In this document: positions 1,913 to 51,673 of the stretch, piece by piece | How the letters are laid out: the number at the start of each line of letters is the position of its first letter | Numbering within the stretch: the first letter of the stretch is position 1 | Assembly: GCF_013839515.1 (NCBI RefSeq) | Contig: NZ_JACDNQ010000006.1 | Coordinates: 62,001-126,000 of the forward strand | Direction of reading: 5' to 3' | Length of the DNA stretch: 64,000 nt | From: Natronomonas salinimetallica | GTDB lineage: Archaea; Halobacteriota; Halobacteria; Halobacteriales; Haloarculaceae | Program-made: the position numbers and the translations under genes | Notes under the pieces: model-generated | What the model was told of the DNA's origin: nothing | The model's input: the letters and a program-made list of their open reading frames with translations, nothing else | Databases searched by the model: none

Positions 1913-2493
1913 CCCGACCGACCGTCCTCGTCGTCGACAACTACGACTCGTTCGTCTACAACCTCGTCCAGTACGTCGGAACCCACGCCGACGTCGTCGT
2001 CCGTCGCAACGACGAGATCGACGTGGACGGGATCAGGCGGCTCGACCCCGAGGCGATCGTCGTTTCACCGGGGCCGGGGACGCCGAGGGAGGCGGGCGTC
2101 TCGGTTCCGGTCTTCGAGTCGCTGTCGTATCCGACGCTCGGCGTCTGTCTGGGCCATCAGGCGTTGTGTGCCGCCAACGGCGTCCCGGTCGGCCACGCAC
2201 CCGACGTCGTCCACGGGAAGCCGTCCGTCGTCACTCACGACGGATCGGGCGTCTTCGAGGGGCTACCCGACGCCTTCGAGGTGGGTCGGTACCACTCGCT
2301 GGCCGCCCAGCCTGGGGCGTTGCCGGCCGAGTTGGTCGAGACGGCCCGAACCGGGGACGACCGCGGCGTTCTCATGGGTGTTCGTCACCGCGAGAAGCCC
2401 CACGAGGGCGTTCAGTTTCACCCCGAGAGTATTCTCACGGACGTCGGTGAACGGATGATAGAGACTTTTTGTCGTCGCTGTCGGGTGGCCTGA
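1909..2493 (+). CDS. pabA: Class I glutamine amidotransferase, component II
   Basis: This 194-residue TrpG/PabA-type subunit hydrolyses glutamine and channels ammonia to component I. The nucleophile elbow is GVCLGHQ with Cys80, and the His-Glu pair is in FHPES (His171, Glu173). The N-terminal VVDNYDSF segment is typical of the family, and the length is standard. Its ATG overlaps the stop of the preceding gene by four bases, indicating translational coupling, and the next gene starts one base after its stop, so the three form one operon. TrpG and PabA cannot be separated by sequence alone; the name rests on context. Confidence 0.9.
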
Positions 2494-2494
2494 G

Positions 2495-3364
2495 GTGACA
2501 CTCCTGTACCACGTCGACGGTGCGTTGGTCGATCGGGCCGACGCGACCGTCCACGTCGACGACCGGGGGTTTCGCTACGGCGACGCGGCCTTCGAGACCT
2601 GTCGGGCCTACGGCGGCGAGGTGTTCCTGTGGGATCGCCACCTCGATCGGCTCGAAGCCACCTGTGCGGTCCTCGGGATGGCCGAGGCCATCCCCGGGGA
2701 CCTCCGTGCGCGCGTCGACGAGACGCTCGAGGCCAACGGCCTCTCGGAGGCCTACGTCCGGGTTTCCGTGACCCGAGGCATCCAGCCCGGAACCCTCACG
2801 CCCGCCGAAGACGTCGACCCGACCGTCGTCGTCTATGTCAAACCGCTCCCGTCGGGTGGGACCGACGGGGATCCGGTCTGGGACGGTCCCGCGACCGTCC
2901 AGTCAGTCGAGACCCGGCGGATCCCCGACGACGCTCTCCCCGCCGGGGCGAAGACGCACAACTATCTCAACGGGATCCTCGCCCGACTCGGGTTGCACGG
3001 GAGCGGTGCGGCCGACGAATCGCTCATGTGTGACACCGACGGATACGTCGCCGAAGGGGCAACGAGCAACGTCTTTTTCGTCGATCGGGGGACGCTGAAA
3101 ACCCCCGAGCGCGGGACGATCCTGCCGGGGATTACCCGTGGGGCCGTCCTCGAGGCGGCCGAGCGAATCGGCGTTCCGGCCGAGGTCGGCCGCTACACCA
3201 TCGACGACGTCCGCGGTTCGACGGAGGCGTTTTTGACGAACACGACATGGGAGATACGACCGATCGGCCGCCTCGACGGGGCCGCGATCGGCGGCGGCCC
3301 CGTGACGGACCGGCTCCGGGAGGCGTACGACGAACTCGTCGACCGGCGCTGTTACGAGACGTGA
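2495..3364 (+). CDS. pabC: Class IV aminotransferase / aminodeoxychorismate lyase
   Basis: This 289-residue PLP enzyme of fold type IV resembles both 4-amino-4-deoxychorismate lyase and branched-chain aminotransferase. Features are the DRGFRYGD segment (about 23-30), the probable Schiff-base lysine in GAKTHNYLNG (Lys153) and the ATSNVFFV motif that grips the PLP phosphate. The start is a GTG one base after the pabA-like stop, and no better ATG lies nearby. Placement third in the operon argues for release of p-aminobenzoate for folate or methanopterin-type cofactors. A branched-chain aminotransferase is the main alternative. Confidence 0.85.
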   Translation: MTLLYHVDGALVDRADATVHVDDRGFRYGDAAFETCRAYGGEVFLWDRHLDRLEATCAVLGMAEAIPGDLRARVDETLEANGLSEAYVRVSVTRGIQPGTLTPAEDVDPTVVVYVKPLPSGGTDGDPVWDGPATVQSVETRRIPDDALPAGAKTHNYLNGILARLGLHGSGAADESLMCDTDGYVAEGATSNVFFVDRGTLKTPERGTILPGITRGAVLEAAERIGVPAEVGRYTIDDVRGSTEAFLTNTTWEIRPIGRLDGAAIGGGPVTDRLREAYDELVDRRCYET

Positions 3365-3457
3365 TAGGGCCGCAGCGCTACTACGGAACTGCTGCGGCCG
3401 GCGGACGGTGCGGCTCGCATCCCGTGGACACTCCTCGGGGGCGTATCGTCGGCGGTA

Positions 3458-3877
3458 TCAGAACTTGTAGTTCGATTTCGATTCGAGATCCGTCCCATCG
3501 CCCTCGATCGCCCCCTCACGGACGAATTCGTAGTCCTCGTCGCTCAGGAACACCGTTCCGTTCTCGACGGCGATCTCGATTTCGTTGAGATACGCCCCCT
3601 CACAGGGGCCGAACGTACAGAAGCCGCTCTCGGACTCGAAGTACGCACCGTGGTTCTCACAGATGAGCTCCTCCCCTCGCATCTCCGCGCCGGACCCCTT
3701 GTCGATCTTGATGTGCGTGTAATGCTGGCAGTAGTTGAGCCACGCGTGGAGTTCGCCGTCGGCCCGGACCAAAATAGCCTCGCGTTCCTCGCCGGACTCC
3801 GTCTCCCGGAGTGTGAACAGATACGTCGTCTCGTCAGGCACATCCTCGATCGGGGCGACAGCACGTCGGGTAGCCAT
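3458..3877 (-). CDS. Rieske [2Fe-2S] domain protein
   Basis: This is a 139-residue small Rieske ferredoxin-like protein. The two cluster-binding boxes are CQH (Cys50, His52) and CENH (Cys73, His76), with the spacing of the Rieske family. There is no signal peptide or membrane anchor, so it is probably a soluble electron carrier rather than a bc1 subunit. The start at 3877 gives MATRRAV; the longer frame upstream would run into the neighbouring regulator gene and lacks haloarchaeal composition. Two further cysteines follow the second box (about residues 85-95). Its redox partner is not evident from the neighbours. Confidence 0.88.
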   Translation of the reverse strand: MATRRAVAPIEDVPDETTYLFTLRETESGEEREAILVRADGELHAWLNYCQHYTHIKIDKGSGAEMRGEELICENHGAYFESESGFCTFGPCEGAYLNEIEIAVENGTVFLSDEDYEFVREGAIEGDGTDLESKSNYKF

Positions 3878-3938
3878 CGTACGGCGGTAGCGGCCGATCG
3901 AACAAACCGCTTGCGGGATTGGAAGGTCACACGGGGGG

Positions 3939-5531
3939 TCACCCGTCCCCGGGGTCGTCCCAGATCGCCGATAACAGGTTCCGCTGTGCGGCGCGGACAT
4001 GCGTCGAGAACGTCGGCTGGGCGATCCCCAGGGAGTCGGCGATTTCCGCGCCGGTCCGCTTTCGGGTCTCGTCGAAGTAGCCGGCGTGATACGCCGTCCG
4101 CAACACGTCCCGCTGTCGTGCCGTGAGCACGCCGGCCAGAAGGGTCGGCCACGGCGTCGCTTCGGTCGGGGCTGCGGCCCGCTCGGCTTTCAGTTCCGCG
4201 TCGCCGAACAGTTCCTGTGCCTGCCCGATGAGACGGTGTTCGTCGCGCTCGCGGCAAATCGAGACGGCGAGTTCGCAGTCGTGCTCGGAGACCCGGAGTG
4301 AGCGGAAACTCGCTCCAAGGGTAGTCACCACCGAGGCGACACACGGTTCCTCCACGAGGACCTCATAGATCGAGGTACCGGTCCCCGGGAGACACTCGAC
4401 CGATCGAATCTCGGGGGCGGTGTCGGCGGCATCGACGACGCGCTCGGGGGTGACATCGGAGAGCAGACAGTAGAGGAGGAACTCGTCCTCCGTTCGCCTG
4501 CTCACGCTCCGGACCTCGACGGTTCTCGACAGCCGGCGGGCAAGCACCCGGAGCGGCTCGTCCTGTTCGATCGCTACCCCGAGGACGAGGTCCCTGCTCC
4601 CGTCGGTATGCAGCGCGTTTCGGCGCTCGAGTGCGGTGACAGCGTAGCCGACGAGCGCTCCGAGTTCTGTCAGGATGTCCCGAATCCGGCCGTCGAAGGT
4701 ATCGACGGTCGTTCCGTAGATTGTCAACACGCCGTGGTGGATACCTTCGTGGTGGATCGGGACCGCGAACACCGACCGGTAGCCCTCCGCCAGCATCGCC
4801 GCCCGCCAGGGTCCCTCGGGAAGCCGCTCCGGAACGCGGTGTTCGCCGGTGGTCGGCCGTTCGTCTGCGACCCGGACGGCCGGAACCGGGGACTCGAAAC
4901 CAAGCGAGAGCGGTATGTCCTCCAGGCGGGAATCGGGGACGTCACACCGCGCGACCGGCACGAGCGCTTCCGCTGAGGGGCCGACGGTGCCGATCCACAC
5001 CCCGCCAAATCCCTCGAGGTCGGCGATCGAACGACAGACCGCCTGGTGGATGCGTTCGCGGGAGCGGACGTCGATCAGTATCTCGTGTAACGACCGGATC
5101 GTCTCGTTCAGCTCGGTGACGTACTCGAGTCGCTTTTTCCGCTCCGTGATATCGACGATGTATCCCATGTAACCGGTGATTTCTCCGTCCTCGCGAACGA
5201 TCCGGGTATGGTCGAGTACCCAGCGGACCTCCCCGCCCTTCGTCACCATCCGGTATGGCTCGTGATGGAACCGCTCGGTCGTCCCGTTACTGTGGTCTTT
5301 GACCTCTTGGGTGACCCGCTCTCGGTCGTCCTCGTGAACCAAATCGATATACGCGGGGTCGCCGTCGCACAACTCGGTCGGCGAGTATCCGAAGAGCCGA
5401 TCGACGTTCGGTGAGACGTACTCGACCGGCCACCCCGACTCGTTGTGCCACGTAAACACGACGACTGGGCCCTCCGCGAATAAATCGAACTCCGTACTCC
5501 CCGACGTGTTCGCATCGATCCGCTCTGTCAT
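3939..5531 (-). CDS. PAS-GAF sensor with bacterio-opsin-activator HTH
   Basis: This 530-residue regulator has an N-terminal PAS domain with PAC segment (about 20-135, including NVDRLFGYSP and the GYIVDITERK end), a GAF domain (about 145-300), the Bat-specific middle region and a C-terminal HTH_10 domain (LTARQRDVLRTAYHAGYF onward, about 470-525). Haloarchaeal Bat-like proteins of this layout are one-component sensors responding to light, oxygen or redox signals; the ligand here is unknown. An A/T-rich TATA element (about 5562-5574) lies about 30 bases upstream. It is transcribed toward the Rieske gene, which may be a target, though this is inference. Confidence 0.92.
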   Translation of the reverse strand: MTERIDANTSGSTEFDLFAEGPVVVFTWHNESGWPVEYVSPNVDRLFGYSPTELCDGDPAYIDLVHEDDRERVTQEVKDHSNGTTERFHHEPYRMVTKGGEVRWVLDHTRIVREDGEITGYMGYIVDITERKKRLEYVTELNETIRSLHEILIDVRSRERIHQAVCRSIADLEGFGGVWIGTVGPSAEALVPVARCDVPDSRLEDIPLSLGFESPVPAVRVADERPTTGEHRVPERLPEGPWRAAMLAEGYRSVFAVPIHHEGIHHGVLTIYGTTVDTFDGRIRDILTELGALVGYAVTALERRNALHTDGSRDLVLGVAIEQDEPLRVLARRLSRTVEVRSVSRRTEDEFLLYCLLSDVTPERVVDAADTAPEIRSVECLPGTGTSIYEVLVEEPCVASVVTTLGASFRSLRVSEHDCELAVSICRERDEHRLIGQAQELFGDAELKAERAAAPTEATPWPTLLAGVLTARQRDVLRTAYHAGYFDETRKRTGAEIADSLGIAQPTFSTHVRAAQRNLLSAIWDDPGDG

Positions 5532-5898: not shown

Positions 5899-6597
5899 AT
5901 GGACGTAATCGGCGACGTGATCGCCCGCGATCGTCGCTCCGATCGGCCCGCGCTCTCCGTGCCGGCCGTCGGCCGCCGCTACGACTACCGCCGGTTCTGT
6001 ACGAGCGCCTGGAAGGCCGGGAACTTCCTCAGACTGCTTGGCGTACGCGAGGGGGTCGGCGTCGATCTCGCCGACGATCCGACCGCGGAACCGGTGTTGA
6101 CCCTCTATGGGGCGGCCTCGCTCGGGGCGGTCGTCCGCTTCGACCCGCCTCGGGAGGTCGGTGACGACACGCGTGCGCTCGTCGTCCCCGCGGCCGATCT
6201 CGAGGAGTACGCCGTGGGACCGGCGACGAAGCGGGTCGTCTACGGCGATCCGCCGTCCGATCCGTCGGTGTCGTACTTCGAACGGGACGTCTGGAGTGAG
6301 AACCCGACCGAACCGCCGGATCACGTCGATCCCGGGGATCCGCTGCTCCGGGCCGACGGGGCGGAGTACAGCCACGGCGACGTCTTGCGGACAGCGGGGA
6401 CGATCGTCGAGGAATACGAGATCGGCCCCGACAGCGTCGTGGCCGTCCGCGGCTCGTTTTCGACTCCGACCGTCGCCGTCGCCGGACTCGTCGCCCCCAT
6501 CCTCGCCGGCGCACACCTCGCCGTCGGTCCCGAAAGCGAGGGTGACGTCGTCGTTGGAGGGGCCGAAAGCGACGTTCGGACGGTCGAGATCGGGTGA
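5899..6597 (+). CDS. Stub of an AMP-dependent acyl-CoA ligase-like protein
   Basis: This 232-residue protein resembles the N-terminal subdomain of ANL-superfamily acyl-CoA synthetases: an N-terminal DVIARDRRSDRPAL stretch and a TLYGAASLGAVV segment like the ligase 'LLACARLGA' region. It lacks the P-loop-like YTSGTTG motif, the adenylation core and the C-terminal lid domain, and so cannot be a normal ligase. The frame is intact, with good haloarchaeal codon use and its own TATA box 25 bases upstream, so it looks maintained rather than decaying. A regulatory or scaffold role is possible; function unknown. Confidence 0.65.
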   Translation: MDVIGDVIARDRRSDRPALSVPAVGRRYDYRRFCTSAWKAGNFLRLLGVREGVGVDLADDPTAEPVLTLYGAASLGAVVRFDPPREVGDDTRALVVPAADLEEYAVGPATKRVVYGDPPSDPSVSYFERDVWSENPTEPPDHVDPGDPLLRADGAEYSHGDVLRTAGTIVEEYEIGPDSVVAVRGSFSTPTVAVAGLVAPILAGAHLAVGPESEGDVVVGGAESDVRTVEIG

Positions 6598-6730
6598 ACG
6601 CTGTCGGTCCGGCCCGCCCGACGTCACCCGCTCCCCGCGCGACGTCGCCGTTGCGCCGACGCACAGCGTACGATACCGCCACGGACCGGCCCACAACGCA
6701 TTTGACCACGAGTCACGTAGGCGGACATCG

Positions 6731-7357
6731 ATGAGCCGCGCCGCGTACGACCGGTGGGTCTTCGACCTCGACGGGACGCTGGTCGACGTCGAACCCGACT
6801 ACGTCCACGAGGTGATGGGCCGGATCGGTGACCGACTGGGCTATGGTTTCACCGATCGACAGGCCGAGACCCTCTGGCACGGCTTCGGTGGGGAACGGGG
6901 CGATCACCTCCGCGCGTGGGGAATCGATCCCGAACGGTTCTGGACGGTCTTCCACGACGAGGAGGACGCGGCCGCGCGTGCCGGGGCCACCTTCTTATAC
7001 GATGACGCCGCCGTCGTCGGCGAACTCGACGCGCCGACCGTACTCGTCACCCACTGTCAGCGATACCTGACGGATCCGGTGTTGGCGTCGTTGGACATCG
7101 GCGATTGGTTCGATTCGATCGTCTGCTGTAGCGCCGAAACGGGCTGGAAACCCGACCCCGAACCGGTCCGGACGGCGCTGTCGGCGGCAGGAGCCGAGTC
7201 TGGCCGTGGGGTCCTCGTTGGCGACACGCCGGGGGACGTCGGTGCGGCGTGGAACGCGGGCCTCGAGGCCGCCCACGTCGAGCGCCACGGCCACGGACGC
7301 CGGGGGTGTTGTGTCGTCGGCGACCACCGAGTTGGCCGGATCGACGAGTTGGCCTAG
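6731..7357 (+). CDS. HAD-superfamily hydrolase
   Basis: This 208-residue phosphatase-like protein opens with the HAD motif I, FDLDGTLVD (nucleophile Asp12, general acid Asp14), followed by an alpha-helical cap. Motif II (VLVTH), a lysine in ETGWKPDPEP and motif IV (VLVGDTPGDV) are all in order, so it should be catalytically competent. It resembles phosphoglycolate-phosphatase-like haloarchaeal HADs, but the substrate cannot be inferred. The start MSRAAYD at 6731 was chosen because coding character begins there. Its stop overlaps by four bases the stop of the convergent small gene. Confidence 0.88.
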   Translation: MSRAAYDRWVFDLDGTLVDVEPDYVHEVMGRIGDRLGYGFTDRQAETLWHGFGGERGDHLRAWGIDPERFWTVFHDEEDAAARAGATFLYDDAAVVGELDAPTVLVTHCQRYLTDPVLASLDIGDWFDSIVCCSAETGWKPDPEPVRTALSAAGAESGRGVLVGDTPGDVGAAWNAGLEAAHVERHGHGRRGCCVVGDHRVGRIDELA

Positions 7358-7672: not shown

Positions 7673-7688
7673 TTTAGGTATGCCTAAA
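7673..7688. promoter_or_regulatory. Palindromic operator, TTTAGGT-type, site 1
   Basis: The sequence TTTAGGTATGCCTAAA matches the window-wide consensus TTTAGGTNNRCCTAAA. It lies in the divergent gap, about 100 bp from the start of the small acidic gene and 79 bp upstream of site 2. It may act as a distal or cooperative site, or control an unannotated transcript. Confidence 0.7.
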
Positions 7689-7766: not shown

Positions 7767-7782
7767 TTTAGGTTCACCTAAA
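7767..7782 (+). promoter_or_regulatory. Palindromic operator, TTTAGGT-type, site 2
   Basis: The sequence TTTAGGTTCACCTAAA is a perfect 16-bp dyad ending 11 bases before the ATG of the GT75-like gene. For a leaderless transcript it overlaps the TATA position (TTTTTTA, 7764-7770), which fits a repressor operator. Confidence 0.8.
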
Positions 7783-7793
7783 ACAGTGTAGCA

Positions 7794-9056
7794 ATGGACG
7801 AGTATACCGACCGATCCGGGACGACGAGCGGCTCTGGAGGTACGGACAAGCCACAGAGCGCGGACAAAGACTGCGATATCTGCGTCATCGTCCCCACAAT
7901 CCGGGAATACGACTGCGTTCGCGCGTACATCGAGAACGCCCGAGCGCACGACTTTGACACCGATCGACTACACTTCGTCCTCGTCACCGAGGACTTCTGT
8001 GATACCGACGAGATGCGAGCGATGCTCGATGATCTCGGCGTCGACGGTGCGGTCTTCGACGGAAGCGACCGCGAGGAGTGGTACGAGCGTCACGGGATCA
8101 CCGAGTACGCACACCTCGTACCGGCGGCGAGTCACGCCGAAACGAGCTTCGGACTCCTCTACATGTGGGCCAACGATACGTTCGAGTACGGCGTCTTCAT
8201 CGACGACGACACGCTCCCACACAATGGGGACTTTTTCGGTCGACACATGCGGAATCTCGCCTTTGGGGGAGACATCGAGCGAGTTCGTTCGGACGAACAG
8301 TGGGTCAACGTGCTGTATCAACGGGCCGACGAACACGGTCTCTATCCGCGAGGCTACCCCTACTCGGCGATGGACGAAACCGTCGAGACGGATACTGTCG
8401 AAGTCGGATCCGGCGAAATAGTCGCCTCGCAGGGGCTGTGGACAAACGTCCCGGATCTCGATGCCGTCCGGATCCTGATGGACGGTGACCTGGAGGGGCA
8501 GGCCCAAACCCGGACGACGCTCGAGGATTTCGATCGGGACTTCGTCGCCGCGGACGGAAACTATCTCACGGTCTGTTCGATGAATCTCGCGTTCCGGCGG
8601 GAAATCATTCCCGCGTTCTATCAGCTCCCGATGGACGACAACGAGTGGGACGTCGGGCGCTTCGACGACATCTGGAGCGGCGTCTTCCTCAAGCGGGCCT
8701 GCGATTTCCTCGGCGCGCGGATCTACAACGGCCGGCCGCTGTGTGAACACAACAAGGCCCCGCGGTCGACGTTCGACGACCTCCACAACGAGGTCGCGGG
8801 CTTGGAGCTCAACGAACACCTCTGGGAGCTCGTCGACGAGGTCGAACCGGGACCGCTGCGCTCCAGCGACGCGGCCGACGGCTACGCGGCGGTCTTCGAG
8901 GCGATGGCACGGCGACTCGCCGAGGGCGAGTTCGACGAGTACCGCAACGGCGCGTTCCTCACTCACGTCGGCGAGCACATGCTCGGGTGGCTCGAGTGTC
9001 TCGACGAACTCGGAGCGGCCGGGGCGGTCGAAACGCCCGTCGCGGCGGACGACTGA
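7794..9056 (+). CDS. GT75 / reversibly glycosylated polypeptide-like protein
   Basis: This 420-residue protein resembles the RGP / UDP-arabinopyranose mutase family (GT75). It has a nucleotide-sugar-binding start (CVIVPTIREYD, about 29-40), an acidic metal/nucleotide motif FIDDDTLP (137-139 DDD), the family signature YPRGYPYS (Arg186; the equivalent arginine is reported as the self-glycosylation site in plant enzymes), SQGLWTNVPDLDA, a CSMNLAFRREI segment and GRFDDIWSGV. The family interconverts pyranose and furanose forms of UDP-sugars; the exact substrate here is unknown. The gene sits directly behind operator site 2 and upstream of an Fe(III)-binding lipoprotein gene. No signal peptide is seen, so it is cytosolic. 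Confidence 0.8.
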   Translation: MDEYTDRSGTTSGSGGTDKPQSADKDCDICVIVPTIREYDCVRAYIENARAHDFDTDRLHFVLVTEDFCDTDEMRAMLDDLGVDGAVFDGSDREEWYERHGITEYAHLVPAASHAETSFGLLYMWANDTFEYGVFIDDDTLPHNGDFFGRHMRNLAFGGDIERVRSDEQWVNVLYQRADEHGLYPRGYPYSAMDETVETDTVEVGSGEIVASQGLWTNVPDLDAVRILMDGDLEGQAQTRTTLEDFDRDFVAADGNYLTVCSMNLAFRREIIPAFYQLPMDDNEWDVGRFDDIWSGVFLKRACDFLGARIYNGRPLCEHNKAPRSTFDDLHNEVAGLELNEHLWELVDEVEPGPLRSSDAADGYAAVFEAMARRLAEGEFDEYRNGAFLTHVGEHMLGWLECLDELGAAGAVETPVAADD

Positions 9057-9062
9057 AGCGAC

Positions 9063-9073
9063 GAATATATATG
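9063..9073 (+). promoter_or_regulatory. TATA box of the Fe-binding lipoprotein gene
   Basis: The stretch gaatatatatg lies about 25-30 bases before the ATG at 9096 and directly before operator site 3, the expected layout for a repressible leaderless promoter. Confidence 0.65.
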
Positions 9074-9075
9074 TA

Positions 9076-9091
9076 TTTAGGTGGACCTAAA
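9076..9091 (+). promoter_or_regulatory. Palindromic operator, TTTAGGT-type, site 3
   Basis: The sequence TTTAGGTGGACCTAAA lies between the TATA box and the ATG, four bases before the start codon. It would cover the transcription start of a leaderless mRNA. Confidence 0.82.
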
Positions 9092-9095
9092 AACC

Positions 9096-10238
9096 ATGAC
9101 TGACGAACGAATCCACGGACGAACGACAGACCGCCGGCGCTTTCTCGCGGCCGCGGGCGCGGCCGGGGCGGCCGGACTCGCCGGCTGTTCGGGGATGCTC
9201 GGCGGGAACGGATCGGACGACGGCACCGATGGCTCGGACTCGCCGGTCGGCCAGATCGGATCGGGGCGGGAGGGCCGCGATGCTCCCGGTGGGACCCCGA
9301 TGAGCGAGATGCCGGATCTACAGGGCGAACTCACAGTCTACTCGGGCCGCGGTGAGTTCCTCGTCGGCGAGCTCGTCGGCTTCATCGACGATCAATACGA
9401 GGACTTCGAGTTGACCGTCCGGTACGGCGGGTCGACCGATCTCGTCAACCAGATCGTCAACGAGGGCGACGGCTCGCCCGCCGACGTGTTCTACTCGGTG
9501 AACGCCGGGTCCCTCGGGGCGTTGGCCGACGAGGGACGAGCGGGATCGATCGACGAGTCGGTCCTCGAGATGGTCCGCTCGGAGTTCCGTACCGACGCCT
9601 GGATGGGGACGTCCGGCCGGGCGCGGACGATCCCGTACAACACCGACGCGTACGCGGCCGACGACATGCCGAACGATATCATGGCCTATCCCGAGGCGTT
9701 CGACGGCGATCTCGGATGGGCACCCTCCTACGGCTCCTGTCAGGCGTTCGTCACCGCCATGCGGCTCATCGAGGGCGAGGAAGCGACCCGCGAGTGGCTC
9801 AACGCCGTCATTGAGAGCGGTATCACCGACTATCCGGACGAGTTCGCCGCCTGTGAGGCGGTCGCCGACGGCGAGATCGACGCCGCGTTCACGAATCACT
9901 ACTACGTCCAGCGCGTACTCGACGGGAACCCGGAGGCCTCGATCGCGACCGCCTTCACGCAGGGTGACGCCGGTGCCGTCTTCAACGTCGCCGGCGCGGC
10001 GGTCGTCGATACGGCCGACGACGAGTCCCTCGCGAGCAACTTCATCCGACACCTGCTGTCGGCGGAGGCACAAAACTACTTCGCTACGTCGACGTTCGAG
10101 TACCCGCTCGTCCCGGACGTCGACCCGGTCGGCGACCTCCCCTCGATCGACGAACTCGACGTTCCCGATATCGATCTCGCGCGGCTCTCCGAACTCGAGC
10201 CGACGGTCGATCTCATGCGTGACGTCGGCGCGCTCTGA
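9096..10238 (+). CDS. Tat-exported Fe(III)-type ABC substrate-binding lipoprotein
   Basis: This 380-residue extracellular solute-binding protein resembles FbpA/FutA/IdiA ferric-binding proteins. It has a twin-arginine signal (RRRF at 13-16, Ala/Gly-rich core) ending in a lipobox AGLAGC (Cys31), followed by an acidic Gly/Ser/Asp linker. The mature domain begins GELTVYSGRGEF and contains a paired-tyrosine segment NHYYVQR like the iron-ligand tyrosines of ferric-binding proteins. The start at 9096 was preferred over an in-frame GTG at 9081 because that GTG lies inside the operator. It is probably co-transcribed with the GT-C gene 15 bases downstream. No permease or ATPase adjoins it; a matching permease lies at 47.8-49.4 kb. 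Confidence 0.88.
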   Translation: MTDERIHGRTTDRRRFLAAAGAAGAAGLAGCSGMLGGNGSDDGTDGSDSPVGQIGSGREGRDAPGGTPMSEMPDLQGELTVYSGRGEFLVGELVGFIDDQYEDFELTVRYGGSTDLVNQIVNEGDGSPADVFYSVNAGSLGALADEGRAGSIDESVLEMVRSEFRTDAWMGTSGRARTIPYNTDAYAADDMPNDIMAYPEAFDGDLGWAPSYGSCQAFVTAMRLIEGEEATREWLNAVIESGITDYPDEFAACEAVADGEIDAAFTNHYYVQRVLDGNPEASIATAFTQGDAGAVFNVAGAAVVDTADDESLASNFIRHLLSAEAQNYFATSTFEYPLVPDVDPVGDLPSIDELDVPDIDLARLSELEPTVDLMRDVGAL

Positions 10239-10253
10239 ACGGTTCCCACCGAC

Positions 10254-12416
10254 GTGACATCTCCTCGAGACCGGCTCCGACGGCGGGTATCGAAGGCCGT
10301 CAGTGAAGCGTTTCGCCGCCTCGACGCCCCACGGGTGGCGGCCATCGCGACCGCCGCCGGGGCCGCTATCGCGGTCTTCGTCGTCTCCAGTACGGTCTTT
10401 GCGTACCACTCGAGCAACCACGACGAGGGGGTATATCTGCTCCAGGCGGCGCTGCTTCTCGACGGTCAACTCGAACTCCGGGCCGGGGAGTTGGCCGGCG
10501 CGTTCCGGCCGTGGTTCTTCGTCGAGGACGGGGGGCGGCTCTACCCGAAATACACCCCCGTTCCGGCGGCGATGTTCGCGGCCTCGATGGCGCTTTTCGG
10601 CGAGCCGCGGATGACGCTCGCCGCCGTCGCCGCGGCGAACGCCGCGCTCGTGTACGTGTTGGGGTCGATGCTCTTCGATCGCCGGGTCGGCGTCGTCGCG
10701 GCGGCGCTGTTCGCCGCGTCGCCGCTCGCGGTCGTGACGACGTCCGCGTTCCTCCCCTATGCGCCGACGACGGCGCTGAATCTGTTGTTCGCCGTCGCGT
10801 ATCTGCGGGGCGTCCGGGACGGCTCGATCCCCGCCGCCGCGGTCGCCGGGATCGCGATCGGGGTCGCCTTCTTCGCCCGCCCCTACACGGCGGTGCTGTT
10901 CGCGATCCCGTTTATGTGTCACGCGCTCGTTTCGGTCGTCAACTCGGTGTCGGACGGCGGTATTTCGACCGCCGAACCGGTCCGTAGACAGGGCGTGACG
11001 GCGGTGTTTGGCCTCGCGTTCGTCGGCGTGACGCTCGCGTACAACGCCCGGATGACCGGTTCGCCACTCGTGTTCCCCTACGAGGCGTTCGCCCCCGCGG
11101 ACGGTCCCGGGTTCGGCACCCGGCGGATCCTCGACCACTCGGTCACGTACACCCCCGCGTTGGCGCTGGAGGCCAACGGGTACGCCATCCGGTATCTCCT
11201 CACGCGGTGGTTCGTCGCGGGACCGATCGGGACGGCGGCCGCGGTCGCGGGCCTCGCGCTCGCCGTCCGCCGATGGATCGGTGAGCGGACTGCCGCCGAC
11301 GGTTCGGCGGCCTTCGAGCGACGGGCGGGCCTCGTGCTCGCCGGGCTCTTCGTGACCGTTACGGCCGGCAACGTCGCCTTCTGGGGCAACTACAACGTCC
11401 TCGCGACGCTGTCGGATCCGACCGACGGCCTCGTCTCGCAGTTCGGCCCGTTCTATCACTTCGACCTGCTGGTTCCCCTTTCGGTGTTCGCAGCCCTCGC
11501 CGTCGTCGTCGGCTGGGACCGGGGGGTTCCGGCCGTCCGGTCGGTGATCGAACGCCGCCGCTCCCGGCGGGCCGCGCGGGTCGCGGTCGCGCTCCTCCTC
11601 GTTGCGAGCCTCGTCGGCGCGTCGGCCGCCGCGGTCGCGGCCGTCTCGGGTCCGCTCGACCGGAACGCGGCTCACACGGAGAAATACGAGGTCGCCTACG
11701 GGCCGATCGAGACGGCCGACCCCGAAAGCGCGGTGGTATTTTTGCCGACGCCGTACGGCGACTGGCAGAACCACCCGTTCCAGTATCTCCGCAACGACGG
11801 CGGGCTGGACGGCCCCGTCGTCTACGCGCTCGATCGCGGCCCGGGTGACGACTTCGCGGTCCTCGATGCCTACCCGAACCGGACGCACTACCGGTATGCC
11901 TATCGGGGCGAGTGGACGCCGAGTGCGGATCGACACGTCACCCCGAAGCTCGAGCCGCTGGACGTCCGTCGCGGCGCGACGCTCGATGGAGAGGCCGTCG
12001 TCGGCGTCCCGTCCCGCGTCGCCCACGCCAGGGTCCGACTCGAAAGCGAGACGGGCGGTACCGCCGAGTACGCGGTGGCCGATCCCGACGGCTCGATCAC
12101 CGTGCCGTGGTCGATCGATCGCGACGCCGCGCGGTTGTTGGCGGCCGACTCAGCGCCGTCGGTTCGGGTGGGTGGGGCCGACACCGTCGTCCTGACGGTC
12201 ACGCTCACACAGCCCGACGGCGGAACGCTCACGTACCGCCAGGAAGCGACCGTCAGAACCGGCATCGACGGCGTCGAGGTAGTCTGGCCGCCGGAGCGCT
12301 CCGTCTGTCCGCTCGTCACCGACTGCGGTAACGAGGGGACGTACCTCCCCGACGATTCGGACGCCCACCGGGCGGGCGTCTCCTTCGAGACGCGTCTGGA
12401 GCCGCGAGAGCCGTGA
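10254..12416 (+). CDS. GT-C membrane glycosyltransferase (GT39/PMT-like)
   Basis: This 720-residue polytopic protein has one N-terminal helix, an external-loop acidic motif NHDEG (55-59) typical of dolichol-phosphate-sugar-dependent GT-C transferases (PMT/ArnT type), then about ten more membrane helices to about residue 445. A C-terminal soluble domain of about 270 residues (beta-rich, ending with VCPLVTDCGNEG) faces the outside. It probably transfers a lipid-linked sugar to surface proteins or glycans. The start is GTG at 10254, 15 bases after the lipoprotein stop, so it is under operator site 3. The substrate is unknown; fusion to the C-terminal domain is not one I recognise. Confidence 0.8.
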   Translation: MTSPRDRLRRRVSKAVSEAFRRLDAPRVAAIATAAGAAIAVFVVSSTVFAYHSSNHDEGVYLLQAALLLDGQLELRAGELAGAFRPWFFVEDGGRLYPKYTPVPAAMFAASMALFGEPRMTLAAVAAANAALVYVLGSMLFDRRVGVVAAALFAASPLAVVTTSAFLPYAPTTALNLLFAVAYLRGVRDGSIPAAAVAGIAIGVAFFARPYTAVLFAIPFMCHALVSVVNSVSDGGISTAEPVRRQGVTAVFGLAFVGVTLAYNARMTGSPLVFPYEAFAPADGPGFGTRRILDHSVTYTPALALEANGYAIRYLLTRWFVAGPIGTAAAVAGLALAVRRWIGERTAADGSAAFERRAGLVLAGLFVTVTAGNVAFWGNYNVLATLSDPTDGLVSQFGPFYHFDLLVPLSVFAALAVVVGWDRGVPAVRSVIERRRSRRAARVAVALLLVASLVGASAAAVAAVSGPLDRNAAHTEKYEVAYGPIETADPESAVVFLPTPYGDWQNHPFQYLRNDGGLDGPVVYALDRGPGDDFAVLDAYPNRTHYRYAYRGEWTPSADRHVTPKLEPLDVRRGATLDGEAVVGVPSRVAHARVRLESETGGTAEYAVADPDGSITVPWSIDRDAARLLAADSAPSVRVGGADTVVLTVTLTQPDGGTLTYRQEATVRTGIDGVEVVWPPERSVCPLVTDCGNEGTYLPDDSDAHRAGVSFETRLEPREP

Positions 12417-12498
12417 ACGGAACCGAGCGCGTCTGCGGCGATGAACGGAACCGAGCGCGTCTGCGGCGATGAACGGAACCGAGCGCGTCGGCGGCGAT
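12415..12498 (+). repeat. Tandem repeat, 28 bp x 3
   Basis: Three head-to-tail copies of a 28-bp unit beginning gaacggaaccgagcg (12415-12442, 12443-12470, 12471-12498); the third has one change. The first copy overlaps the last two bases of the GT-C stop codon. Confidence 0.95.
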
Positions 12499-12749
12499 TG
12501 AACGTCGCGGGCACGTACGGGAGACACCGCATCGTACCGGACGGCCTCGCGTTCCGTTTCGCTTGATAAACCCCTGCCAGAATCCTCGAAATTGATCCAT
12601 AGTCCGTCGGCGTCTCTTATCGAGACAACCGTTAGCACAGCGCCGCAGTCTGTGTGTTTCACCCAGAGCACCGGTCGAAATCCGGCCTGCGCCGCCCGTC
12701 CGATATCAGGTACATTTATATAGAACCACAGACAATCATTCGGACGACT
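12499..12749. other. Promoter region of the thermosome gene
   Basis: Between the tandem repeat and the thermosome start there is no convincing gene. A strong TATA box TTTATATA at 12715-12722 lies 28 bases before the ATG, as in haloarchaeal heat-shock-type leaderless promoters. The open frame that would extend the thermosome upstream lacks its conserved N-terminus. Confidence 0.6.
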
Positions 12750-44577: not shown

Positions 44578-45495
44578 TCACCGGTACGCCGAACAGACGC
44601 GCTCGATTCCCGCCTCGAACCCGACGTCCGGTTCCCATCCGGTTTCGGCCCGCAGTTTCGAGGGATCCGCGCAGGTGTCGTGGACGTATATCGCCTCCGG
44701 GATCGGGTTCTCGACGTACTCGGGGGCGACGTCCACCCCGAGCGTCTCGGCGATCGATTCGACGACAGTATTGAACGAGTGTCGATCGCCGGTTCCGACG
44801 TTGTAGACGCCGTCGAGCCGATGTTCGGCGGCGAGTACCGCGCCGTCGACGACGTCCGAAACGTGGGTGAAATCCCGTGTCTGGGTCCCGTCGCCGTACA
44901 GCACCGGGGACGCCCCGCGTGCGATGTCGTCGGCGAACTGCGCGATGACGTTCGCGTATTCCTCCTTGTGTCGCTCGGCACCGCCGTAGCCCTGATACAC
45001 CGAGAACAGCCGTAACCCGGCCACCGACATCCCGTGATGGGCCCGAAAGTACTCCGCGTACCGCTCGCGGGCCAGCTTCGAGGCCTCGTATCCGGTGTTC
45101 GCCGTCACGTCCGCCACCTCGGGGGACGGCTCCGTCCGATCGCCGTAGACGGACGACGTCGAGGCGTAGACGACGGTCTCACAGCCGTCCCGGCGGGCCT
45201 GTTCGACGACGTTGACGAACCCCTCGACGTTCACCCGGACGCCACGCTGTGGATCGGCCTCGTGCATCGCGTAGGAGGACAGCGCTGCCAGGTGAAAAAC
45301 CACGTCCACGTCCGTCGGCAGGTCGGACTCCAGGACGGACCGATTCCGGAACTGGACCGCCGTATCGAGGTTCTCGGGCGTCCCCAGCGAGCAGTCGTCG
45401 ACGGCGATCACGTCGTTGGCCGCGGCGAGGTGGTTTGCGATGTTCGCGCCGATGAACCCCGCACCGCCCGTGACGAGCACGCGTCGGTTCTTCAT
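44578..45495 (-). CDS. NAD-dependent sugar nucleotide epimerase/dehydratase
   Basis: This 305-residue extended SDR has VLVTGGAGFIGANIA (about 5-19), a catalytic YASTSSVYG and YEASK (Tyr/Lys) pair, and the sugar-nucleotide-binding C-terminus. It resembles UDP-glucose 4-epimerase-type enzymes. The start at 45495 (MKNRRVLVTGG) fits the family; an in-frame ATG 18 bases upstream lies in a short duplication. It is convergent with the DUF457-like gene and belongs to the surface-glycan set. Confidence 0.9.
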   Translation of the reverse strand: MKNRRVLVTGGAGFIGANIANHLAAANDVIAVDDCSLGTPENLDTAVQFRNRSVLESDLPTDVDVVFHLAALSSYAMHEADPQRGVRVNVEGFVNVVEQARRDGCETVVYASTSSVYGDRTEPSPEVADVTANTGYEASKLARERYAEYFRAHHGMSVAGLRLFSVYQGYGGAERHKEEYANVIAQFADDIARGASPVLYGDGTQTRDFTHVSDVVDGAVLAAEHRLDGVYNVGTGDRHSFNTVVESIAETLGVDVAPEYVENPIPEAIYVHDTCADPSKLRAETGWEPDVGFEAGIERVCSAYR

Positions 45496-45580
45496 ATCGC
45501 TACGATCCCTCATATCGCTACGATCACCGCTGCGATTTTGAAGCTGTCGACGCCCGAAGGGGCTCTTTCTCCCTCGCTTG

Positions 45581-47003: not shown

Positions 47004-47753
47004 TCACTCCGTCGTCGCGCTCGTCACGTCGTCGGCCTCGTATCCCTCCTGAAGCCGCCGTTCGGCCTCCTCGCGGTCCTCGGGATACCCCACGTCGATC
47101 CGCCAGCCCTCGAGCCCGATCGCGTCGATGGTGCGACCCGACTGGATCAACAGGTCGATCGCATCGGAGATCTCGTACTCGCCGCGGTCGGAGGGCTGGA
47201 CCAGATGACAGGCGTGAAAAATCGCGGGCGAAAACGTATAAAAACCGGTCATCACCAGGTTCGACGGCGGGTCGTCGGGCTTTTCGACGACGTCCGTTAT
47301 CTCGCCGTACTTGTTGGTGTCACAGACCCCATAGCGGGAAGCCTCCTCCCAGGGCACCTCCTCGACCAGAAAGGCGGCGTCGGCGCGCGCCTCCCGCTGA
47401 CGGTTGACGACGTCGGCGAGGTTCGCCTCGAAGACGTTGTCCCCGAGCATCAACATGAAATCGTCGTCGATATGCTCTTCGACGCACAACAGCGCGTGGG
47501 CGAGCCCACGCTGCTCGCGCTGGTGAGTGTAGGTGATCGGAACGCCCTCGTAGGCGTCACCGTAGTGGTCGATGATCCGCTCTTTTTTGTACCCGACGAC
47601 GACGAGCAGTTCCTCGGCGTCCAGTTCGATGAGTCGGTCGAAGCAGTGACTCAGGATGGGTTGGCCATCGACGTCGACGAGTGCCTTCGGTTTGTCCTCG
47701 GTCAGCGGGCGGAGACGGGTTCCCTCTCCCGCGGCGAGTACGACTGCGCGCAT
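47004..47753 (-). CDS. aglF: Glucose-1-phosphate nucleotidyltransferase (AglF-like)
   Basis: This 249-residue enzyme makes a UDP- or dTDP-sugar. It has the nucleotidyltransferase signature VVLAAGEGTRLRPLTEDKPK (about 4-23), a metal motif LMLGDNVF, VEKPDDPPSN and GWRIDVGYPED. It closely resembles AglF of Haloferax volcanii, a UTP-dependent glucose-1-phosphate uridylyltransferase for S-layer N-glycosylation, from memory. The start at 47753 (MRAVVLAAGEG) fits the family. It lies downstream of the Fe permease on the same strand. Confidence 0.88.
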   Translation of the reverse strand: MRAVVLAAGEGTRLRPLTEDKPKALVDVDGQPILSHCFDRLIELDAEELLVVVGYKKERIIDHYGDAYEGVPITYTHQREQRGLAHALLCVEEHIDDDFMLMLGDNVFEANLADVVNRQREARADAAFLVEEVPWEEASRYGVCDTNKYGEITDVVEKPDDPPSNLVMTGFYTFSPAIFHACHLVQPSDRGEYEISDAIDLLIQSGRTIDAIGLEGWRIDVGYPEDREEAERRLQEGYEADDVTSATTE

Positions 47754-47805
47754 ACCTCCACGGACGGGCCGCCGGGACAAATCTTTTCGGCTCCTCGCGC
47801 TCGAA

Positions 47806-49410
47806 TCACAGCCCGCTGCCCTCGCCCTCCTGAGAGAGCATCACGACCATCGAAAGGCCCGAAATGAGGATCAAAATGAGCGCGGGCACCGCGGCGTACT
47901 GATAGAGCGCGGACTCTTGGGCCCGCCAGATCTGGGTGACGATCGTCTCGAAGCCGGACGGTCGGAGGATGAGCGTCACCGGCAGCTCCTTCATCGTCGT
48001 CAAGAAGACGAGCGCGGCCCCCGCGACGAGCCCAGAGCGGATGTGTGGCAGCGTGATTCGCCGGAACGCGCCGATCGGAGACTCCCCGAGGGTCCGGCCG
48101 GCCTCGACGAGTTTCGAGTCGACCTGTAGGATCGAGGTCCGGGTCGTCCCGACCGCCTGCGGCACGAAGCGAACGACGTACGCGAAGATCAAAAGCGGCA
48201 GCGTCTGATAGAGCCAGGGGACGTAGCCCGAGCCGAAAAAGACCAACGCGAGCCCCAACACGACGCCCGGGACGGCGAAGCCGACGTACGTCGCCCGCTC
48301 GAACAGCGTCGCCAGCCGTGAGTCGCTCGTCCCGGCGAGATACGCTACCGGGAGCGCGACCAGCGTGGCGACGGCGGCGGCGGCGGCGGCGACGGTCACG
48401 GAGTTAACCGCCTGCGTCCACTCGAACGCCATCGACGGCCGTCGGCTCACGTCCGTTCGCCACAGCCACAACAGCAGGATCCAGACCGGGACGGCGAGCG
48501 TCGTCGCGGTGACGCCGGCGGGGAGCAGCGTCGCGGGCCAGCGCCACCGTCCCAGCCGGACCTGGCTTCCGACGCGGTCGGCGTCGTCGCCGCGGACGGT
48601 CTGGTCGGGGCGGATCGCCCATTCGAGGGTCAACACGACGAGAACGAGCAACAGGAGCTGAATCGAGAGCAACGCGGCGTACTCGCGGCCGAAGGTGTTG
48701 TACTCGACGTAGATCTGTCTGGTGAACACCGACAGGCGCATGATCGCCGGTGTGCCGAAGTCCGAGATCGCATATAGCGCAGTCAAGAGCCCGCCGGCGG
48801 CGATCGCGGGCCGGATCTGCGGCAGCGTCACCCGGCGGAAGGCACCCCAGGAGCCGTAGTTGAGCGTCCGGGCGGCGTCGATCAACCGCGTGTCGAAGGA
48901 GACGAGAGCGGCCCGGGTCGTCAGGTAGACGTAGGGGTACGTATAGAGGGTAATGACGAATATCGACCCGGGGAGCCCGTAGATCTCCGGCAGGCGTCCG
49001 ACACCGAGCGGGGCCAAAAGCGAGTGGAACTCCCCTTGGGGGCCGAACGCGGAGACGAACGCGAACGCGCCGACGTAACTCGGTACGACGAGGGGGAGCG
49101 CAACCGCGATCGACCAAAAGCGCCGGAACGGGAGGTCGGTCCGGACGGTCAGATACGCCAGCGGAACCCCGAGGAGGATCGAACAGAGGGTCACGCCGAT
49201 CATCAACAGAAGGCTGTTGAGGAGGACGTCCGCGGTCCCGGCGCTGAAGACGAGTTCACGGGCGCGGACGGGATCCACGGTCACGACTTCGAGCAGCAGC
49301 CACGCCAGTGGGAGAATCAACGCCACCGCGATCGCGCCACAGAGCGCCGTCAGTCCGGGCGACAGTGGGAGGTTCACCGATCGTTCGGCGGGATCGTTCT
49401 CTCGTTCCAT
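47806..49410 (-). CDS. Fe(III)-type ABC transporter permease (two-domain)
   Basis: This 534-residue permease is a fused pair of six-helix domains, as in FbpB/FutB. The EAA-type loops are AARTLNYGSWGAFRRVTLPQIRPA (first half) and EAGRTLGESPIGAFRRITLPHIRSG (second half), and the LYAISDFGTPAIM segment is typical of Fe(III) permeases. Its ATPase is not adjacent. It is divergent from the subunit-3 gene, sharing a 96-bp gap with the operator at 49485-49500. The cognate binding protein is probably that at 9.1 kb. Confidence 0.88.
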   Translation of the reverse strand: MERENDPAERSVNLPLSPGLTALCGAIAVALILPLAWLLLEVVTVDPVRARELVFSAGTADVLLNSLLLMIGVTLCSILLGVPLAYLTVRTDLPFRRFWSIAVALPLVVPSYVGAFAFVSAFGPQGEFHSLLAPLGVGRLPEIYGLPGSIFVITLYTYPYVYLTTRAALVSFDTRLIDAARTLNYGSWGAFRRVTLPQIRPAIAAGGLLTALYAISDFGTPAIMRLSVFTRQIYVEYNTFGREYAALLSIQLLLLVLVVLTLEWAIRPDQTVRGDDADRVGSQVRLGRWRWPATLLPAGVTATTLAVPVWILLLWLWRTDVSRRPSMAFEWTQAVNSVTVAAAAAAVATLVALPVAYLAGTSDSRLATLFERATYVGFAVPGVVLGLALVFFGSGYVPWLYQTLPLLIFAYVVRFVPQAVGTTRTSILQVDSKLVEAGRTLGESPIGAFRRITLPHIRSGLVAGAALVFLTTMKELPVTLILRPSGFETIVTQIWRAQESALYQYAAVPALILILISGLSMVVMLSQEGEGSGL

Positions 49411-49506: not shown

Positions 49507-50055
49507 ATGGAACTGACGAGGCGGGACGCGGCGGCCGCCCTGGCGGCGGTCGGGGCCGGCGGAGCGGTCGCGTTCGGGGTCGACCGGCTTCGGGGGGATG
49601 GTTCGGACGGCCCGGACGCCTCCGGGCAGGATCCGCCGGCCGAGGCGCGGCTCCGGGAGACGTTCGTCGCGGCCGCGGAAGTCCTCTATCCGAGCGAGGT
49701 ATCGGGGATCGGGGGCTTCGTCGAGGGGTTTCTCGAGGGACGGCTCGGACGCCGCGACCACGCCGACGGGATCCGGGCCGCGGTCGGAGCCCTCGACGAC
49801 CGGGCCGTCTCGTGGTACGGCGAACGCTTCGCCGCGCTCGCCGTCGAGGACCGCGACCGGCTCCTCCGGGAGATCGGGGCCGATACCGCCGAGGAGGACC
49901 CCGAGGGAACGACCGCCGAACGGGTCCGATACTACGTGGTCAACGAGCTCCTGCTCGCGTTGTACGCCTCCCCGACCGGCGGCGAACTCGTCGGCCTCGA
50001 AAACCCCCAGGGCCACCCCGGCGGGACCGAGAGCTACCGGCGGGGGCCGAAATGA
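49507..50055 (+). CDS. Gluconate 2-dehydrogenase subunit 3-like protein
   Basis: This 182-residue protein resembles the small subunit of membrane sugar-acid dehydrogenases. Its N-terminus (LTRRDAAAALAAVGAGGAVAFG, about 3-24) is a Tat-type signal or anchor with a twin-arginine. The helical body (about 45-165) and conserved GHPGGTESY end match the family. It overlaps the GMC gene by four bases; such small subunits carry their flavoprotein partner through the Tat pathway. It lies directly behind operator site 4. Confidence 0.85.
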   Translation: MELTRRDAAAALAAVGAGGAVAFGVDRLRGDGSDGPDASGQDPPAEARLRETFVAAAEVLYPSEVSGIGGFVEGFLEGRLGRRDHADGIRAAVGALDDRAVSWYGERFAALAVEDRDRLLREIGADTAEEDPEGTTAERVRYYVVNELLLALYASPTGGELVGLENPQGHPGGTESYRRGPK

Positions 50056-51650
50056 GCGGTTCGGCCCCGAACGGCCGGAGACCGGTATCGGGGGCGGACG
50101 TCTGTGTCGTCGGCGCGGGGCCGGCCGGTGCGCTCGTCGCCGACCGCCTCGCGGCCGAGCACGAGGTCGTCGTCTTGGACGCCGGCCCCCGGTTCGATCC
50201 GGCCGACCGCCTCGAACGCCAAGAGCGGGCGATCCGGCCCGCCTACGACCGCCCGGACGTGTGGGACGGCGACGACGAACGCGACGCCCACTCGGCCTCC
50301 GGCGACCGGTTTTATCCCCTGAACCACGCCCGTGTAAAGGGGATCGGCGGCTCGACGCTACACTGGCAGGGGATGGTGATGCGGCTCCACGAGGACGACT
50401 TCGCCTCGGGGAGCGAACGCGGGGTCGGCCCCGACTGGCCGATCGACTACGGGGAGGTACGGCCCTACTACGCCGCCGCCGAGCGCGAACTCGGGGTCGC
50501 CGGATCGGACGACAACCCCTACGCACCGCCGCGCGAGGAGCCGTACCCGATGCCCGCGTTCGCACCCTCCTACAGCGACGGCCTCTTCGCCGACGCCTGC
50601 GAGGCGCTCGAAATCGACATGCACTCGGTACCGAACGCCCGGAACTCCGAGCGCTACGACGGCCGGTCGGCCTGTGTCGGCTACGGGACCTGCCAGCCGG
50701 TCTGTCCCGCGGGGGCGAAATACGACGCCACCGTCCATATCGAGCGGGCCGAATCGAAGGGCGCAACGGTGATCGACCGCGCGCCGGTCCAGCGGCTCGA
50801 ACACGGTGTAGACCGGGTTCGTGCGGCCGTCTACGCGACCCCCGACGGCACCGAGTACAGACAGACGGCCGAGGCCTTCGTCGTCGCCTGCGGTGGCGTC
50901 GAGACGCCGCGGCTGTTGTTGCTCTCGGACTCCGAACACTACCCCGACGGGCTTGCGAACGAAAGCGGCCTCGTCGGCAGGTACTTCATGGATCACCTCT
51001 TCGCCGGCACCGGCGGCGTCCTCGAGGAGCCCACGCGACAGAACCACGTCGGCTTTCTCACGAGCGAGAGCCACCAGTTCTACGACGACGCCGACGGAGA
51101 GATCGGGCCGTTCAAGCTCGAATTTTTCAATTACGGCGGCCCCTCGCCGGTCGAGACGGCGCTGTCGGCCGACACCTGGGGTGAGGACCTGCTGGATCGG
51201 CTCAGACAGGACTACGGGACCCACGTCGGCATGGGTGCGCTCGTCGAGCAACTGCCCCGCGAGGACAGCTACGTCGGCCTCGATCCCGACCGGACCGACG
51301 ACCACGGCAACCCCGTGCCCGACGTCCACTGGACCGTCGGCGACCGGGCTCTGCGAACGATCGAGCGGGCCAACGAGGTCCAGGAGGCGATCCTCTCGGA
51401 ACTCGGCGCGGAGATCACCTGGCAGGTCGGCCCCGACGATACCGGCCCGGCGTATCACCACATGGGAACCACCCGGATGGGTACCGACCCCGAGGAGAGC
51501 GTCGTCGATCCCCGTCTCCGAACCCACGACCTCGGGAACTGCTGGCTCGTCACCAGCGGCGCGTTCCCGACCGGCGGCGCGGTGAACCCGACGCTTACGA
51601 TCGCCGCGCTCGCGCTGCGGGCGGCCAAGGACGTCCGAACGTCGCTTTGA
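50052..51650 (+). CDS. GMC-family FAD oxidoreductase
   Basis: This 532-residue flavoprotein has an N-terminal FAD motif VCVVGAGPAGALVADRL (about 18-34), a GMC substrate-domain region and the C-terminal HHMGTTRMG motif with the catalytic His region. A cysteine cluster (CVGYGTCQPVCPAGAK, about 215-230) is also present. It resembles the large subunit of gluconate or sugar dehydrogenases that feed electrons to a c-type cytochrome. It has no signal peptide of its own and is probably exported with the subunit-3 partner. The substrate is unknown. Confidence 0.9.
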   Translation: MSGSAPNGRRPVSGADVCVVGAGPAGALVADRLAAEHEVVVLDAGPRFDPADRLERQERAIRPAYDRPDVWDGDDERDAHSASGDRFYPLNHARVKGIGGSTLHWQGMVMRLHEDDFASGSERGVGPDWPIDYGEVRPYYAAAERELGVAGSDDNPYAPPREEPYPMPAFAPSYSDGLFADACEALEIDMHSVPNARNSERYDGRSACVGYGTCQPVCPAGAKYDATVHIERAESKGATVIDRAPVQRLEHGVDRVRAAVYATPDGTEYRQTAEAFVVACGGVETPRLLLLSDSEHYPDGLANESGLVGRYFMDHLFAGTGGVLEEPTRQNHVGFLTSESHQFYDDADGEIGPFKLEFFNYGGPSPVETALSADTWGEDLLDRLRQDYGTHVGMGALVEQLPREDSYVGLDPDRTDDHGNPVPDVHWTVGDRALRTIERANEVQEAILSELGAEITWQVGPDDTGPAYHHMGTTRMGTDPEESVVDPRLRTHDLGNCWLVTSGAFPTGGAVNPTLTIAALALRAAKDVRTSL

Positions 51651-51657
51651 GCCGTCT

Positions 51658-51673
51658 TTTAGGTCAACCTAAA
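51658..51673 (+). promoter_or_regulatory. Palindromic operator, TTTAGGT-type, site 5
   Basis: The sequence TTTAGGTCAACCTAAA lies eight bases after the GMC stop and 32 bases before the ATG of the GT2 gene, next to a TATA-like aacttaa (about 51674-51680). It overlaps the expected transcription factor B recognition region. Confidence 0.8.

Follow-up and report, generated by a model that had tools for sequence, protein, structure and literature searches.

Why should a gene for a ferric-type binding lipoprotein lie between the genes of two sugar enzymes? The question is raised by a 64,000-nucleotide stretch of the Natronomonas salinimetallica genome (the whole of which is called the window below), in which a GT75-like protein, the lipoprotein and a GT-C membrane glycosyltransferase follow one another behind TTTAGGT operators. 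The original prediction had described this row, and all three genes and the exact palindromes were recovered in our analysis. We are highly confident that the genes belong to a single functional unit joining ferric import to the synthesis of an extracytoplasmic glycan, because the analysis established by computation the protein families and catalytic residues, the operators that the genes share, their conserved order and their joint presence or absence. Judged from the enzymes encoded, the glycan is probably furanose-containing. The three genes of the row are as follows.

7794-9056, + strand: GT75-family protein, predicted nucleoside diphosphate (NDP)-pyranose/furanose mutase (Pfam RGP PF03214, E=1.2e-16, above the cut-off)
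9096-10238, + strand: FbpA-like Tat lipoprotein, a ferric-iron binding protein by homology, termed here the substrate-binding protein (SBP); Tat RR motif and lipobox; an alternative in-frame GTG start at 9081 is possible
10254-12416, + strand: GT-C glycosyltransferase, PMT_2/GT39-like (PMT_2 above the cut-off), with a C-terminal DUF7846

The solved protein nearest to the GT75 product is MtdL, with a profile hit of 4e-29 and template modelling (TM) scores of 0.70/0.78 for the predicted model; the TM scores to rice UAM2 are 0.57/0.68. Mapping through the MtdL profile alignment and the MtdL paper (PMC9937993) placed D109-111, R159, D195, S228, R257, D260 and H287 of MtdL at D137-139, R186, D221, S262, R289, D292 and H319 of the GT75 protein, all of which are invariant in the homologues compared. 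The fold is accordingly accompanied by the DDD motif, the catalytic Arg, two Asp and the metal-binding His. In fold and in the catalytic Asp triad, Arg, Asp and His the protein resembles the GT75 mutases MtdL, Hyg20 and plant UAM/RGP, but it differs from them in its iron-type operator context and in having His114 and Met263 at the positions of the sugar-contacting D87 and Q229 of MtdL. As the plant protein AtRGP2 has a Ser at MtdL position 87, this difference concerns the substrate and not family membership. Mutase chemistry is likely. The RefSeq name, a glycogenin-like "glucan-protein synthase", is less likely, since MtdL and UAM are far closer than glycogenin by fold.

The SBP matches bacterial SBP families in Pfam and, in phmmer searches, solved ferric-binding proteins (E=1.4e-56 to 7w3w and 2.4e-44 to 3wae). 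Of 101 homologues, 97% or more conserve NHYY and the tyrosines Y82 and Y212, giving a lipid-anchored protein of the ferric-binding type with conserved tyrosines. As originally predicted, its gene is separated from that of the GT-C enzyme by 15 bases (10239-10253). The further premise that the lipoprotein stands apart from a permease and an ATPase proved to describe a local rearrangement, as in many relatives both lie between the SBP and GT-C genes. The idea that the lipoprotein has no transporter partners was rejected, since the window itself holds the permease and another contig the ATPase.

47806-49410, - strand: FbpB-like ABC permease with two BPD_transp_1 stretches
G000:C26:45961-47121, on a separate contig: FbpC-type ATPase, 68% identical to a cassette ATPase (next best 48%)

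The permease gene is 35 kb from that of the SBP in the window and adjoins the SBP gene or the GMC dehydrogenase pair (see below) in relatives. Upstream of the ATPase gene, at a distance of 63 bp, there is a palindrome with one mismatch, and a ferritin-like gene lies close by. The system resembles FbpABC/FutABC importers (7w3w, Thermus 3wae/4elo, HitA) over the full length of the SBP and in its tyrosine positions, two-domain permease and ATPase. It differs in that the haloarchaeal importer is often flanked by glycosyltransferases and accompanied by a co-inherited glycan module, and in that its three parts lie at three separate places in this genome. Directly behind the permease gene there is a sugar nucleotidyltransferase gene (47004-47780, - strand), with an NDP-sugar epimerase gene farther on (~44578-45500, - strand). 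The nucleotidyltransferase was not retained as a core component, because of five relatives checked only the two nearest have it behind the permease.

Beyond the permease, the window holds three further genes of the unit.

49507-50055, + strand: small subunit with a Tat signal, Gluconate_2-dh3 (PF13618, E=1.9e-8)
50052-51650, + strand: large subunit of a GMC-family FAD sugar dehydrogenase, nearest to FAD glucose and fructose dehydrogenases
51706-52467, + strand: GT2 enzyme, dolichyl-phosphate sugar synthase-like, soluble domain only, nearest to Dol-P-Man synthase

The GT-C enzyme has an invariant acidic motif (N55, D57 and E58) in the first outer loop after the first helix, and its predicted model has the GT-C membrane fold, with the structures of STT3, ArnT, AftA and Emb as best matches (TM scores of 0.3-0.4, superfamily level only). 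It shares this fold and the acidic motif with polyprenyl-phosphate-sugar pathways (the AftA/Emb arabinofuranosyltransferases, ArnT and archaeal AglB), to which the Dol-P-Man synthase-related GT2 adds a further likeness; the low fold similarity and the DUF7846 set it apart. Right after its stop codon, a unit of ~28 bases (gaacggaaccgagcgcgtctgcggcgat) is present in about three copies (window 12414-12500). The dehydrogenase large subunit aligns with the catalytic subunits of the FAD glucose and fructose dehydrogenase complexes (6a2u, 7w2j) over nearly the full length and keeps the iron-sulphur cysteines of FAD-dependent glucose dehydrogenase (FAD-GDH), and the Tat-exported Gluconate_2-dh3 subunit completes the likeness. 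In contrast to those complexes, the window genes are tied to glycosyltransferases and iron-type operators, and no cytochrome c subunit was found among the genes adjoining them in the window, the genome as a whole not having been searched for one. Likewise, no siderophore synthetase of the nonribosomal peptide synthetase or IucA/IucC type was found among the scanned genes in or next to the cassette, a search that was not extended genome-wide.

The genes on both sides of the 35 kb gap are linked by their operators. A motif scan found the exact palindrome TTTAGGTNNNCCTAAA at five places in the window.

7673..7688, no strand: DtxR-type palindrome TTTAGGTATGCCTAAA, from the motif scan
7767..7782, no strand: DtxR-type palindrome TTTAGGTTCACCTAAA, 11 bases 5' of the GT75 start codon
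9076..9091, no strand: DtxR-type palindrome TTTAGGTGGACCTAAA, 4 bases 5' of the SBP start codon
49485..49500, no strand: DtxR-type palindrome TTTAGGTTTGCCTAAA, in the space that separates the permease gene from the divergently oriented dehydrogenase genes, 75 bp upstream of the permease start
51658..51673, no strand: DtxR-type palindrome TTTAGGTCAACCTAAA, 5' of the GT2 gene

Allowing up to two mismatches, the window gives 10 strand hits compared to 0.05 expected. The looser TTAGGN4CCTAA, a core that matches part of the bacterial DtxR box, occurs at only 10 sites in the 2.78 Mb genome, five of which are in the window, and its reversed control at one. The palindromes at 7767, 9076 and 49485 end within ~12 bases of a start codon, a position from which a bound repressor could stop initiation. 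Among the distinct loci of relatives, exact palindromes mark the start of GT75 in 103 of 111 and of the SBP in 85 of 100, compared to 73 of 1107 other open reading frames of the same loci. At the GT2 start the palindrome is exact in 55 of 76 distinct loci (70 of 76 allowing one mismatch), and dehydrogenase starts likewise bear palindromes. Three genes with strong Fe_dep_repress matches in this genome encode candidate DtxR-family proteins, so that palindromic operators at gene starts occur together with putative regulators of this family, as in DtxR/IdeR iron regulons. Altogether, the common operators support a predicted co-regulation of the importer and the sugar genes.

Identical palindromes also occur elsewhere in the genome. 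Those at positions 4598, 4635 and 5755 of locus L152 (G000:C12:234000-244078) precede the gene for a large DUF5059-plastocyanin lipoprotein (2140-4593). The gene at 5930-6838, which begins 175 bp after a palindrome, encodes a polyprenyl diphosphate synthase that is possibly a source of the lipid carrier. Two more, at L151 3361 and L153 4182, stand beside DUF2249-type and regulator genes with no evident iron link.

The association had been held to be accidental should the genes not be co-conserved in any relative; the order is in fact kept across the Halobacteria. We collected 119 GT75 loci with their flanks, representing 111 distinct GT75 proteins. The SBP gene comes immediately after GT75 in 95 of the 111 distinct loci, and the GT-C gene lies downstream of GT75 on the same strand in 98. 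Among the 91 loci with both, the spacing from SBP to GT-C is below 350 bp in 55, about the length of a permease in 15 and about that of a permease plus an ATPase in 21. In 43 loci GT75, SBP and GT-C are followed by GT2 and GMC on the opposite strand and then by the permease, and in further genomes the cassette is complete (GT75 > SBP > permease > ATPase > GT-C), in many cases adjoined by GT2 and the dehydrogenase. In the Haloarcula-type arrangement, GMC is outside the cassette. A plasmid of Halobaculum roseum (L193 14081-15327) unites the dehydrogenase pair, GT75, SBP, permease and GT-C; on this plasmid the annotated part of the ATPase, beyond a gap of 0.7 kb, is limited to a TOBE-domain piece, perhaps from a frameshifted gene. 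In 59 loci GT75 is immediately preceded by a UPF0104/LPG_synthase_TM flippase-like gene, which in many cases has a palindrome of its own (e.g. L102, ~-1165 to -29 relative to GT75). The flippase-like gene was rejected as a core component, as most other hits fall in long AglD-like reading frames and its presence is independent of GT75.

Joint occurrence was examined in 46 haloarchaeal genomes, 24 with GT75 and 22 without, with thresholds of 1e-40 for GT-C, 1e-50 for GT2 and 1e-60 for GMC, the matches in GT75-positive genomes being far stronger. GT-C, GT2 and GMC are each present in 24 of 24 genomes with GT75 and in 0 of 22 without; the corresponding chance of 1.3e-13 would hold for independent genomes, which these are not, and serves as a guide only. 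As GT2 or GMC lies far from GT75 in several genomes, the joint occurrence is not merely linkage, and several gains or losses are implied by four families of the set (f1, f4, f7 and f10) that contain both states. By contrast, SBP homologues are present in 19 of the 22 genomes lacking the module. At all 14 module-less loci examined an Fbp-type permease lies beside the SBP, often with an ATPase, and 13 of them have a palindrome (at most one mismatch). In the SBP tree four module-less SBPs nest within the clade of module SBPs, which is consistent with the sugar genes having been lost together.

How might such a unit work? In the mechanism that we propose, whose iron control, reaction order and furanose product are all inferred, a DtxR-family repressor would in iron-replete cells occupy the TTTAGG-N4-CCTAAA palindromes where the genes begin, and iron shortage would open the genes. 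The GT75 enzyme would convert an NDP-sugar from pyranose to furanose and back, GT2 would load a sugar onto a dolichol-type carrier, and the GT-C enzyme would transfer it at the outer face of the membrane. Outside the cell, the Tat-exported FAD dehydrogenase would oxidise sugar, while FbpA, FbpB and FbpC would bind and import Fe3+. The oxidised furanose-containing product, cell-bound or released, would then act as a sugar ligand that holds or presents Fe(III) near FbpA. That it helps to keep Fe(III) there is the weakest step, to which we give somewhat less than even confidence. In favour of this step, Fe(III) is chelated by sugar acids, for example gluconate. Several points weigh against it. 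The usual ligand of FbpA-type proteins is bare Fe3+ accompanied by a small anion and not an iron chelate, no exporter for a released product was found in the cassette, and the homologues of the dehydrogenase have an iron-sulphur cluster, which is odd in an iron-sparing response. Moreover, the Fbp importer without the module in many genomes implies that the glycan is not needed for import as such. In one genome (G023, L058 9001-13058) GT75, GT-C and GT2 adjoin one another, but they lack a neighbouring SBP, and even with one mismatch allowed there is no palindrome; this exception might be a case of the glycan module operating without the importer. The boldest form of the proposal, an archaeal carbohydrate siderophore in which an iron-repressed, dolichol-based furanose glycan is oxidised outside and passed as Fe(III) ligand to a dedicated FbpABC, is rather unlikely.

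The main rival of this mechanism, tentative but with an appreciable share of the probability, is that iron starvation changes the glycosylation of the S-layer, of lipids or of the Fbp lipoprotein itself, and so alters permeability, adhesion, protection or stability with no binding of iron. GT2, GT-C and the UPF0104 flippase-like gene are the usual parts of surface glycosylation, and UPF0104 proteins are predicted glycosylation flippases (PMC5898192). In iron-starved Haloferax volcanii, which encodes a GT75-family protein, the levels of the UPF0104 protein HVO_1859 and of a GalE-type epimerase increase 11.6-fold and 12.7-fold, respectively (PMC11349517). Surface remodelling alone, however, leaves unexplained why glycan genes surround a ferric importer and why a sugar dehydrogenase is exported. 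Surface-glycan remodelling under metal limitation and uptake of a sugar chelate had both been offered in the original prediction; the sequence does not separate them, and each is possible. Its overall interpretation is partly supported, by co-conservation and shared operators, and fails in its premise of an importer-less lipoprotein.

Extracellular sugar oxidation might instead be the purpose, with the electrons of the dehydrogenase reducing Fe(III) for uptake, or sugar acids being made, and with the glycan genes supplying or anchoring the substrate. The perfect co-occurrence of GMC with GT75, the likeness of GMC to FAD-GDH and fructose dehydrogenase and the Tat signal of the small subunit fit this idea, but the lack of an adjacent cytochrome subunit in the window and the position of GMC outside the cassette in the Haloarcula-type arrangement do not. 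FbpA-type importers, moreover, take ferric and not ferrous iron, and on balance we consider this explanation rather improbable. Still less probable is that common regulation is all that joins the genes, the glycan module answering a separate requirement that happens to arise in low iron and adjoining the importer only through the repressor that both use. The importer and the module are indeed separable, as also seen in the genome with a partial module and no palindromes, but GT75 and GT-C flank the importer in many genomes and the SBP keeps its position in 95 of 111 loci. That the genes are functionally unrelated chance neighbours is hardly credible: no point was found in its favour, and it is contradicted by the conserved order, the operators and the joint occurrence of 24 of 24 against 0 of 22. 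The single unit of ferric import and glycan synthesis is thus the reading that we retain.

Each family of this unit is known, and what appears new is a ferric importer with a co-inherited and, by prediction, co-controlled glycan module. No published description of the combination was found in a limited literature search that did not cover the archaeal DtxR-regulon study (Leyn and Rodionov 2015), which may already have catalogued parts of the regulon; Halobacterium locus tags and other possible published links, searched as well, also gave nothing. A co-inherited glycan module behind iron-type operators suggests that iron starvation evokes a response, so far undescribed, in which sugars assist. 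Since genomes retain or lose all the sugar genes together, those that have the module in nature are directly comparable with those that do not. In Halobacterium, energy-dependent iron uptake was measured, but the gene responsible had not been identified (PMC11349517). The unit, conserved in most haloarchaeal genomes searched, is a concrete and testable candidate, and the predicted iron control of its sugar genes would tie archaeal cell-surface sugars to a nutrient signal.

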